This document shows positions 32,193 through 36,385 of a stretch of DNA of 64,000 bases, one piece after another. A model generated the notes under the pieces. That model was not told the DNA's origin. It saw only the letters and a list, made by a program, of their open reading frames with translations, and searched no databases. Each line of letters opens with the position of its first letter. Position 1 is the stretch's first letter. A program made the translations under genes and the position numbers. The stretch is from Jeongeupia sp. HS-3 (GTDB taxonomy: Bacteria; Pseudomonadota; Gammaproteobacteria; Burkholderiales; Chitinibacteraceae): positions 1,240,001-1,304,000 of the forward strand of contig NZ_AP024094.1 in NCBI RefSeq assembly GCF_015140455.1, in the 5' to 3' direction.

Positions 32193-32570
32193 TCAGCAGG
32201 GGCACTTTCCGCCGGCGGCCCGATCGGCGCTAGGGAAACGCGCCTCCAGGCAGTAGCGGTAAAAGTCCTCGCGGCTCATCGGTGTCGCATCCGGGTGCTG
32301 GCTGCGCATGTGGTCGACGTAATACTCGTAATCGTGCACGCCCACCATCAGCCGGCAGGTCTGCACCACCTTCTTCGCCGCATCTTTCAAGCCCGAGAGC
32401 CAATCCGAACCGAGGCTGTAGCGCTCGAACTCGGCCCGGCTCATCGGCGTACCGACGGCATGACGACGCTGGTGGTCGAGCAGGTAACGCTGGTAGTCGT
32501 CACCCTCGTCCACCGCCGGTGGCGGCACCGGCTCGCGCCGGCCGCCGGTCAGGAAAGAAAGATCAAGCAT
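32193..32570 (-). CDS. YbdD/YjiX-family CstA partner with internal duplication
   Basis: Protein of 125 residues. The C-terminal part (54-125) matches the short YbdD/YjiX proteins encoded next to CstA-type transporters: VVQTCRLMVGVHDYEYYVDH, HPDATPMSREDFY and a Cys-containing tail KCPC. The N-terminal part (24-53) repeats the core of that unit. Residues 24-53 and 79-108 align without gaps and share 13 of 30 positions, including TPMSR, F, RY and L. E. coli YbdD has only one unit, in about 65 residues. The start overlaps the cstA end by 8 nt, so translation is coupled. The function of YbdD proteins is poorly known. Confidence 0.82.
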   Translation of the reverse strand: MLDLSFLTGGRREPVPPPAVDEGDDYQRYLLDHQRRHAVGTPMSRAEFERYSLGSDWLSGLKDAAKKVVQTCRLMVGVHDYEYYVDHMRSQHPDATPMSREDFYRYCLEARFPSADRAAGGKCPC

Positions 32571-34635
32571 TGGCAGCGGCCTCGTCACCGCGAAGCTGAA
32601 CTTCGGCCTCACGCACCGTCGGGTGACGTGCGCCCAGTGCGCGGCGGATATTGAAGAACGCGGCCACCAGCATCACCACCGCCACAATCATGAAGAAGCC
32701 GCACAAGGTGGCATTGATCTGATTGTTGAAGGCGATGCGCTGCATGTCCTCGATCGACTTGGCCGGCGCAATGACCGCGCCATTGGCCGCAGCGGCATTG
32801 AACTTGTCGGCGACGGCGAGGAAGCCGATCTTCGGATTGGTACTGAAAATCTTCTGCCAGCCTGCGGTCATCGAAGTCACGAACAGCCAGGCCGTCGGCA
32901 CAATGGTGACCCAGGCGTAGCGTTCCTTCTTCATCTTGAACAGCACCACGGTACCGAGGATCAGCGCCATCGACGCCAGCATCTGGTTGCCGATACCGAA
33001 CAGCGGCCACAGGGTATTGATGCCGCCGAGCGGATCAACCACGCCCTGGTAGACGAAGAAGCCCCAACCTGAAACCGCGATGGTGGTGCCGATCATATTG
33101 CCGAGCCAGCTGCGGCTCTTGCCCAGACTCGGGATCGCCACGCCGGCCAGATCCTGCACCATGAAGCGGCAAGCGCGGGTACCGGCATCCACGGCGGTAA
33201 GGATGAACAGCGCTTCGAACAGGATCGCGAAGTGGTACCAGAACGCCATCATTGCGCGGCTGTTGAAGATGTCGGTAATGATGTGCGCCATGCCGACGGC
33301 GAAGGTCGGCGCGCCACCGGCACGCGACAGGATCGACGTTTCACCCACATCCTTGGCGATCTGCGTGAGCATCTCCGGGGTGACCATGAAGCCCCAGCCA
33401 TTGATCACGACCGATGCCGATTCGACGGTCTTGCCGATCACGGCGGCCGGCGAGTTCAGCGCGAAGTAAACGCCCGGATCGATCACCGAGGCGCAAATCA
33501 GCGCCATGATGGCGACGAACGACTCCATCAGCATCGCACCGTAGCCGATCATGCGGGTATGGCTTTCGCGCTCGACCAGCTTCGGCGTGGTACCCGATGC
33601 CACCAGCGCATGGAAGCCCGAGATCGAACCGCAGGCAATGGTGATGAACAGGAAGGGGAACAGGCTACCCGAGAACACCGGGCCGGAGCCGTCGATAAAG
33701 TTCGTCACGGCCGGCATTTTCAGATCCGGCGCGGCAAAGACAATACCGACCGCCAGACCGACGATGACGCCGATCTTGAGGAAGGTCGACAAATAATCGC
33801 GCGGCGCCAGCAGCAGCCACACCGGCAGTACCGAGGCAATGAAACCGTAGATCACCAGCGCCCAGACGAGCTGCGTGCCGTGCAAGGTGAACATCGGGCC
33901 CCAGACCGGGCTTTGGGCGATGTCTTCGCCGTAGACGATGGCCAGCATCATCAGCACGAAGCCGATCACCGAGATCTCGCCGATGCGGCCCGGGCGGATG
34001 TAGCGCATGTACACACCCATGAACAGCGCGATCGGGATCGTCGCCGCGATGGTGAACGTGCCCCATGGGCTGTCGGCTAAGGCCTTGACCACGATCAGCG
34101 CCAGCGCCGACAGGATGATGATCATCACACCGAGCGCGCCGAGCATGACGATCACACCGGCGAAGGGACCGAGCTCCTGCTTGGCCATTTCACCGAGCGA
34201 GCGACCGTCGCGGCGGGTCGAGATGAACAACACCAGGAAATCCTGCACCGCACCGGCGATCATCACGCCGATCAAGATCCACAGCGTGCCGGGCAGATAG
34301 CCCATTTGCGCAGCCAGAATCGGCCCGACCAGCGGGCCGGCGCCGGCAATGGCGGCAAAGTGGTGGCCAAACAGCACCCACTTGTTGGTCGGCACGTAAT
34401 CAAGGCCGTCGTTACGACGCTCGGCCGGCGTCATCCGGCGATCGTCGAGCTCGAACACCTTGTTGGCGATAAAGGAACTGTAGAAGCGGTAAGCGATGCT
34501 GTAGCAGGCAACCGCCGCCACCACCATCCACACCGCGTTGACGTGCTCGCCCCGATTCAACGCCAGCATCCCAAAGGCGAATGCCCCTGCAATGGCGACG
34601 GCGAACCAGATCAGCTTTGATTTAAGCGTACTCAT
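32563..34635 (-). CDS. cstA: carbon starvation protein A / pyruvate-peptide transporter
   Basis: CstA-family inner-membrane transporter of 690 residues with many helices across its length. The opening signature includes the N-terminal helix SKLIWFAVAIAGAFAFGML, then NKWVLFGHHFAAIAGAGPLVGP, which is highly typical of the family, and GFHALVASGTTPK further on. E. coli members (CstA, BtsT) take up peptides and pyruvate under carbon limitation. GGAGACAGG ahead of the ATG is a good ribosome binding site. The ybdD-like gene overlaps its 3' end. An inverted repeat lies 46 nt upstream of the start. Confidence 0.95.
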   Translation of the reverse strand: MSTLKSKLIWFAVAIAGAFAFGMLALNRGEHVNAVWMVVAAVACYSIAYRFYSSFIANKVFELDDRRMTPAERRNDGLDYVPTNKWVLFGHHFAAIAGAGPLVGPILAAQMGYLPGTLWILIGVMIAGAVQDFLVLFISTRRDGRSLGEMAKQELGPFAGVIVMLGALGVMIIILSALALIVVKALADSPWGTFTIAATIPIALFMGVYMRYIRPGRIGEISVIGFVLMMLAIVYGEDIAQSPVWGPMFTLHGTQLVWALVIYGFIASVLPVWLLLAPRDYLSTFLKIGVIVGLAVGIVFAAPDLKMPAVTNFIDGSGPVFSGSLFPFLFITIACGSISGFHALVASGTTPKLVERESHTRMIGYGAMLMESFVAIMALICASVIDPGVYFALNSPAAVIGKTVESASVVINGWGFMVTPEMLTQIAKDVGETSILSRAGGAPTFAVGMAHIITDIFNSRAMMAFWYHFAILFEALFILTAVDAGTRACRFMVQDLAGVAIPSLGKSRSWLGNMIGTTIAVSGWGFFVYQGVVDPLGGINTLWPLFGIGNQMLASMALILGTVVLFKMKKERYAWVTIVPTAWLFVTSMTAGWQKIFSTNPKIGFLAVADKFNAAAANGAVIAPAKSIEDMQRIAFNNQINATLCGFFMIVAVVMLVAAFFNIRRALGARHPTVREAEVQLRGDEAAANA

Positions 34636-34769: not shown

Positions 34770-35096
34770 CTACGCTAGTTTCAAACCGACAATCCCGGTA
34801 AGGATCAGCAATACCGAGGCGATGCGCAACACGCCCAGCGGCTCATGAAACCAGACGACACCGAACAAGACGGTGCCGAGTGTACCAATGCCGACCCATA
34901 TGGCGTAGGCAGTACCCAGCGGCAAGTGCTTCACCGCGTAAGCGAGCAAGCCCATGCTCACCGCCAGCGTCAGCACGAAGACGAGCGACGGCAACGGCCG
35001 GGTAAAGCCGTGCGAGGCCTTGAGCGCCAGCGCCCAGGCCACTTCGAACAGACCGGCAAATACGAGGGAAATCCAGGGAATGAGGGAGGGAGACAT
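34770..35096 (-). CDS. gdx: guanidinium exporter, SMR family (Gdx/SugE)
   Basis: Small multidrug resistance family protein of 108 residues with four helices, of the SugE/Gdx branch. Those proteins form dual-topology dimers that export guanidinium in exchange for protons. Glu18 in LVFAGLFEVAWALALK is the essential membrane carboxylate. SMGLLAYAVKHLPLGTAYAI and the KL-rich end match SugE closely. A two-hairpin guanidine-II riboswitch immediately upstream strongly supports guanidinium as the substrate. AAAGGA ahead of the ATG is the ribosome binding site. Confidence 0.93.
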   Translation of the reverse strand: MSPSLIPWISLVFAGLFEVAWALALKASHGFTRPLPSLVFVLTLAVSMGLLAYAVKHLPLGTAYAIWVGIGTLGTVLFGVVWFHEPLGVLRIASVLLILTGIVGLKLA

Positions 35097-35117
35097 GGCC
35101 GTTTCCTTTACAAAGGT

Positions 35118-35164
35118 CAGGGCCGTCCCCGGATGATGCAGGCAGTGTCGGGCCGTCCCGGCAC
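35118..35164 (-). ncRNA. guanidine-II (mini-ykkC) riboswitch upstream of gdx
   Basis: On the minus strand two short hairpins share the diagnostic ACGR loop. P1 (35145-35164) has stem GTG-C-CGGG / CCCG-A-CAC around loop ACGG. P2 (35118-35131) has stem CGGGG / CCCTG, also around ACGG. They are 13 nt apart, and P2 ends 12 nt before the gdx Shine-Dalgarno sequence. This is the architecture known for mini-ykkC RNAs, which bind guanidine at each loop and expose the ribosome binding site. A CCTTT/AAAGG complement at 35105-35116 could mask the Shine-Dalgarno in the off state, by inference. Confidence 0.88.
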
Positions 35165-35169
35165 AGAAA

Positions 35170-35192
35170 CGTACCCGGCGTGACCGGGTACG
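35170..35192 (-). terminator. hairpin terminator after metZ
   Basis: A 9-bp perfect stem (CGTACCCGG / CCGGGTACG) with a 5-nt loop, followed on the minus strand by TTTCTG. It lies 15 nt after the metZ stop and only 5 nt before the riboswitch. A gdx promoter would have to overlap it; TTGTCC and TACGTT about 18 bp apart are one candidate. Confidence 0.65.
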
Positions 35193-35206: not shown

Positions 35207-36385
35207 TCAGTTCAGCCCGAGCGCCAAATCGGCGGTCAGATCGTCGATATGTTCCAGCCCCACTGAAATACGGATCAGCCCTTCCCGAATGCCTGCGGCG
35301 GCACGCGCTTCCGGCGTCAGCCGACCGTGCGTGGTCGATGCCGGATGGGTGATCGTCGAGCGCACGTCGCCGAGGTTGGCGGTCCGGCTCATCAGCTGCA
35401 CCGCATCCACCACTTTCCAGGCCGCATCCTTGCCACCCTTGAGCTCGAACGACACCACGCCACCGCCACCGCCCTTCTGCTGGCGCATCGCCAGCGCATG
35501 TTGCGGGTGGCTGGCCAGCCCCGGGTAGTAAACACGTTCGACTGCCGGCTGCGCCTCCAGCCAGGTCGCCAGCTTGAGCGCATTGTCGCAATGGGCGCGA
35601 ATGCGCAGCGGTAGCGTTTCCATACCCTTGAGCAACACCCAGGCATTGAACGCCGACAAAGTCGGCCCAGACGTCCGCAGGAACAGGTAAACCGGTTCGA
35701 CCACCTCGGATTTGCCGACCACCGCGCCACCCAGCACGCGCCCTTGGCCATCGAGGTATTTGGTCGCCGAATGAATGACGATATCCGCCCCCAGCGCCAG
35801 CGGTTGCTGCAAAATCGGCGAGCAGAAACAATTGTCGACCGCCAGCAGCGCGCCATGAGCGTGGGCGATCTCGGCGATCGCGCCGATGTCGGACACATCG
35901 GTCAGCGGATTCGACGGCGTTTCCAGAAAGAACAGCTTGGTATTCGGGCGAACCAGCGCCGCCCAGTCAGCCGGATCGGTCGGCTTGGCGTAGCTGACTT
36001 CGACGCCGAACTTGCTCATGTAATTGTTGAAGAACTGGATCGTCGAACCGAACAAACCGGCCGAGGCCAGAATATGATCACCCGACTTCAGGTGCGCCAT
36101 GCACAGCCCGAGGATCGCGCTCATGCCCGACGCGGTGGCCACCGCCCGCTCGGCGACCTCGAGCGCGGCAAGGCGATCTTCAAAGGCGGTCACGGTCGGA
36201 TTGGTGAAGCGCGAATAGGTATAGCCGGGAATCTGTCCGCCGAACTTGAGCGCGGCGTCTTCGGCGCTGTCGACCACAAAGCTCGACGTCAGGAACAAGG
36301 CGTCGGAATGCTCGCCGAATTCGGTACGGTGCGTGCCGGCGCGCACGGCCAGCGTGTCGGGATGAAAATCGTTGCGGTCTGTCAT
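35207..36385 (-). CDS. metZ: O-succinylhomoserine sulfhydrylase
   Basis: PLP enzyme of 392 residues of the Cys/Met metabolism family. It makes homocysteine directly from O-succinylhomoserine and sulfide, bypassing cystathionine. The PLP-lysine motif is HSATKYLDGQGRVLGG. Other landmarks are GYTYSRFTNPTVTAFEDRLA, FFLETPSNPLTD and SRTANLGDVRSTITHP. The N-terminus (DTLAVRAGTHRTEFGEHSDA) is typical of MetZ. It follows the purF operon but is separated from it by a terminator, so it probably has its own promoter in the 45 nt before its start. Confidence 0.93.
   Translation of the reverse strand: MTDRNDFHPDTLAVRAGTHRTEFGEHSDALFLTSSFVVDSAEDAALKFGGQIPGYTYSRFTNPTVTAFEDRLAALEVAERAVATASGMSAILGLCMAHLKSGDHILASAGLFGSTIQFFNNYMSKFGVEVSYAKPTDPADWAALVRPNTKLFFLETPSNPLTDVSDIGAIAEIAHAHGALLAVDNCFCSPILQQPLALGADIVIHSATKYLDGQGRVLGGAVVGKSEVVEPVYLFLRTSGPTLSAFNAWVLLKGMETLPLRIRAHCDNALKLATWLEAQPAVERVYYPGLASHPQHALAMRQQKGGGGGVVSFELKGGKDAAWKVVDAVQLMSRTANLGDVRSTITHPASTTHGRLTPEARAAAGIREGLIRISVGLEHIDDLTADLALGLN

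Follow-up and report, generated by a model that had tools for sequence, protein, structure and literature searches.

A guanidine-II riboswitch in the leader of a predicted guanidinium exporter gene of Jeongeupia sp. HS-3

The leader element at positions 35164–35118 on the minus strand of the window (the whole 64-kb stretch of DNA that was analysed) is a guanidine-II (mini-ykkC) riboswitch, an already known kind of regulatory RNA, located in front of gdx, which codes for a predicted guanidinium exporter of the SMR family. The aptamer, the identity of the gene and the conserved linkage between them are established for this leader. Taken as a whole, the explanation that we regard as very likely is a guanidine-II riboswitch in the gdx 5′ leader that acts as a translational ON switch, with an OFF hairpin covering the ribosome site. 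The leader is a genuine and ordinary member of its class, a slightly weakened aptamer being its sole notable feature.

Read directly on the minus strand, the leader comprises P1, a linker, P2 and then ACCTTTGTAAAGGAAACGGCC, the 21 nt that separate P2 from the gdx ATG at 35096. P1 (35145–35164, minus strand; GTGCCGGGACGGCCCGACAC) consists of GTGCCGGG-ACGG-CCCGACAC, with an 8-position stem that includes one C·A mismatch, as defined by the alignment to the Rfam Guanidine-II family (RF01068), the sequence and covariation in relatives. P2 (35118–35131, minus strand; CGGGGACGGCCCTG), defined by the same alignment and by covariation in relatives, is CGGGG-ACGG-CCCTG with five pairs, one of which is G·U. 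The linker L1/2 between them (35132–35144, minus strand; TGCCTGCATCATC) is 13 nt long, which falls inside the range of about 7–40 nt described for guanidine-II (PMC7544219). GG-ACGG-CC thus occurs twice in the leader, each copy providing an ACGR cap with GG/CC closing pairs as in RF01068.

The covariance model of RF01068 matched 35164–35118 (minus strand) over its full length (model positions 1–48 of 48) with 40.6 bits, above the gathering score of 32 bits. The E value was 1.2e-4 for the 64 kb, both strands and 4227 Rfam families, and 1.6e-6 across the whole genome (3.4 Mb), where this was the sole Guanidine-II match and a second copy was not found. No other Rfam family scored above threshold in the 64-kb window, and a strict search of both its strands for paired GG-ACGR hairpins returned a single site, the present leader.

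The gene itself (gdx, sugE-type; 34770–35096, minus strand) has an intact reading frame of 108 aa that matches PF00893 with 100.8 bits. Among solved structures, the Gdx-Clo entries (6wk5 and others) come closest to it, at 56% identity without gaps, and the residues of the Gdx-Clo substrate site, E13, W16, S42, Y59 and W62 (PMC7695847), align with E18, W21, S47, Y64 and W67 here, all of them kept. The likeness to Gdx-Clo (PDB 6wk5) lies in gapless identity and identical substrate-site residues; the protein here differs from it by about 5 additional residues at the N terminus (MSPSLIP). NCBIfam NF008512 (SugE) is the best SMR model for the product, 51 bits above the next one, but its score of 119.4 bits is below the equivalog cut-off of 126, so that membership is not supported. 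We assign the product as putatively Gdx-like on the strength of its solved relatives and residues rather than as an NF008512 SugE equivalog. Two more SMR genes in the genome encode proteins 43% and 35% identical to the gdx product, and the whole-genome search gave no Guanidine-II match at either. An earlier note on this DNA had described two hairpins, both with ACGG loops and 13 nt apart, assigned them to guanidine-II (mini-ykkC) and placed them directly 5′ of a SugE/Gdx-type SMR gene on the minus strand; the direct reading, the covariance-model score and the distance of 21 nt to the Gdx-like gene agree with each of these statements.

The arrangement is conserved among relatives. Of the named homologues, the Gdx protein is closest to that of Jeongeupia naejangsanensis (86%), followed by those of Andreprevotia (68–74%), and in the host's bacterial family every genome with a Gdx at least 60% identical has the riboswitch directly upstream. 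For one of these (G027) the riboswitch was missed by the fast filter, and both hairpins are present in its gdx leader (L122). Family genomes that have only paralogues, at most 44% identical, showed no riboswitch ahead of the SMR gene, and the ACGR hairpin pair was not found 5′ of a 50%-identical Gdx relative from another family of the order (G046, L125). In an alignment of 16 family leaders, compensatory changes, on both sides and keeping the pair, occur in 8 of the 13 pairs, while the GG-ACGR-CC cores with their closing pairs are invariant. Close relatives that retain gdx have kept the two ACGR loops, the loss of which the earlier note had held to speak against the riboswitch. Across bacteria, paired ACGR hairpins are found just 5′ of the gene in most of the 80 Gdx relatives that were fetched. 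A gdx relative from Mycobacteroides (L088, about 2440–2500) has an ACGG/ACGG hairpin pair upstream, beyond the mainly proteobacterial range stated for the class.

The gene neighbourhood is shared as well. Upstream of gdx and outside the switch lies metZ (35207–36385, minus strand; O-succinylhomoserine sulfhydrylase, NF006003 678 bits, cut-off 522), and cstA follows downstream; the order metZ-gdx-cstA, with the riboswitch between metZ and gdx, is common to several genera of the family. Overlapping the end of cstA is a 139-aa reading frame (32193–32612, minus strand) with two PF04328 matches, which suggests that the short partner usually found with cstA has been duplicated in tandem.

In six leaders from family relatives (L009, L010, L021, L023, L026 and L027; about 1501–1640), a guanidine-II riboswitch lies 5′ of a different gene, whose product has a beginning that resembles MFSKVLIANRGEIACRII, as is typical for biotin-dependent carboxylases of the guanidine/urea carboxylase type. 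A riboswitch copy ahead of such a carboxylase-type gene is absent from the host genome. Neither a guanidine-I or guanidine-III riboswitch nor a urea/guanidine carboxylase above the urea-carboxylase family cut-off was found in the genome, which fits with export as its main response to guanidine.

Riboswitches of the guanidine-II class are described as translational ON switches in which guanidinium binds both loops, stabilises their kissing interaction and frees the ribosome site (PMC12186494; PMC9300104; PMC5486947). The ligand and the ON direction presumed for the gdx leader are taken from this literature on the riboswitch family. When guanidinium is absent, P2 would lose its 5′ arm and its loop to a long hairpin that hides the Shine-Dalgarno sequence and the start region, so that little exporter would be made. 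Binding of guanidinium to both ACGG loops would stabilise P1, P2 and the loop-loop contact, which would prevent the covering hairpin and allow gdx translation to begin, and the Gdx protein would then swap guanidinium out for protons. For the Gloeobacter riboswitch, a stem-loop that overlaps P2 as well as the ribosome site has been proposed as a mutually exclusive structure (PMC5486947). Because the predicted OFF hairpin excludes P2, stabilisation of P2 by the ligand would expose the start region in the way proposed there.

The OFF hairpin (35089–35130, minus strand) is predicted from the minimum-energy fold of the leader. It pairs GGGGAC (35130–35125) with GUCUCC of the coding start (35094–35089), GGCC from the loop and 3′ arm of P2 (35124–35121) with GGCC just 5′ of the AUG (35100–35097), and CCUU with the AAGG of the Shine-Dalgarno sequence; the Met-Ser-Pro codons of gdx are thereby complementary to the P2 arm GGGGAC. 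The minimum-energy folds of the leader and of both sister species consist of P1 and the OFF hairpin, not P1 and P2, with a preference for the OFF fold over the P2 fold of about 1.3 to 4.3 kcal/mol in ensemble energy, and a longer leader segment folds into a related structure. The GGGGAC/GUCUCC pairing is present in the window leader and in one sister (G001), with a shifted match in the other (G002). Enclosed within the OFF hairpin is a mini-hairpin, CCTT-TGTA-AAGG (35105–35116, minus strand), seen in the sequence, in sister species and in folding, in which CCTT (35116–35113) forms four pairs with AAGG (35108–35105) around UGUA, the 3′ side being the Shine-Dalgarno sequence. The earlier note had suggested a complementary CCTTT/AAAGG pair as the switch. 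The complementarity is indeed present, and CCTT-N4-AAGG is kept in three species of the genus, with other loops in the two sisters; however, a literal 5-bp hairpin was rejected, since it would have a loop of 2 nt and only four pairs can form, and the element is absent from other genera. As a local switch it would therefore be partial at best, and folding nests it in the larger hairpin that competes with P2.

Compared with dinucleotide shuffles, the complementarity of P2 to the downstream region has a z of −0.7 in this leader, which is within the shuffle range, and the folding energy of the whole leader is no better than that of shuffles (z −0.36). Over 64 leaders, the mean z for P2-to-downstream complementarity is −0.48 ± 0.17, slightly beyond shuffles, and in another genus of the family the pairing is strong (z −3.3 to −4.9; L006, L007, L024 and L025). 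Pairing of the linker with the Shine-Dalgarno sequence, as reported for E. coli, was considered and rejected (linker z +0.25 here, mean −0.06 over 64 leaders). The exact OFF structure of the gdx leader is thus one that we infer from folding.

Two alternatives question whether the element is a translational riboswitch at all. A chance pair of GC-rich hairpins would be in keeping with a GC-rich region and with a leader that folds no better than shuffles as a whole, but it is refuted by the covariance-model match and by conservation in the same place with covariation in relatives, as well as by the uniqueness of the site in the window and genome, and we give it practically no credence. Control of transcription or of mRNA stability, instead of ribosome-site access, could be suggested by the terminator-like 10-bp hairpin followed by TTTCT that a pattern scan placed just 5′ of P1, between metZ and the riboswitch (35170–35192, minus strand). 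The same type of scan found no terminator-like site from P2 to the start codon, where 21 nt are available, and the guanidine-II family is described as translational (PMC12186494), which makes this reading very improbable. A consensus scan of the metZ-gdx gap detected no sigma-70-like promoter.

A different question is whether the translational riboswitch still works at full strength. Among the 16 family leaders, this one alone has ACGG in P1, where the sister species have ACGA, and its C·A mismatch in P1 is at a position paired in all 15 of the others. The 74 distinct aptamers collected comprise 39 AG, 23 AA, 9 GG and 3 GA loop combinations; GG is described as rare in nature, and an E. coli aptamer engineered to GG binds guanidinium in vitro at 264 µM, compared to 133 µM for AG and 59 µM for AA (PMC9300104). 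The ACGG in P1, the C·A in P1 and the G·U in P2 should each weaken the sensor, and owing to the G/G loop pair and the mismatched P1, the leader probably responds more weakly than those of the sister species, or requires more guanidinium to respond. Such an aptamer may be tuned down or slowly decaying. If decay had gone far, the aptamer would still be recognisable while P1 no longer switched usefully, with gdx constitutive or hardly made; the loss, relative to the sisters, of the A at P1 loop position 4, the gain of C·A and G·U, and the roughly two-fold weaker binding of the published GG construct relative to AG point in this direction. Nevertheless, both hairpins retain the complete invariant GG-ACG-CC core, the score exceeds the gathering threshold, the GG construct retains ligand binding in vitro, GG loops recur in natural aptamers and the gdx frame is undamaged, so that we consider decay rather unlikely. 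The idea of a naturally down-tuned guanidine-II switch with a competing hairpin reaching into gdx codons 1–3, the coding start being part of the switch in the family, is a tentative one to which we assign a low probability. The leader confirms a guanidine-response module in this Jeongeupia genome, in what is otherwise routine annotation. A natural ACGG/ACGG leader beside ACGA/ACGG sisters of the same genus and gene setting would offer a clean in vivo test of the fourth loop base.

With the guanidine-II riboswitch of E. coli gdx/sugE, the leader shares two GC-rich ACGR hairpins, a 13-nt linker and a position directly 5′ of the Gdx gene. It differs in having ACGG/ACGG loops, C·A in P1 and G·U in P2, as opposed to the ACGA/ACGG loops of E. 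coli, and in its predicted OFF pairing the partners are P2 and the gdx coding start, not the linker. The guanidine-II riboswitches of Jeongeupia naejangsanensis and Andreprevotia (L028–L031) have the same location and gene, and the Jeongeupia sister leaders have the CCTT/AAGG element in common with the one described here. They all differ from it by ACGA in place of ACGG in P1, and in the Jeongeupia sisters P1 is an unbroken 10-bp stem, whereas here it is interrupted by the C·A mismatch.
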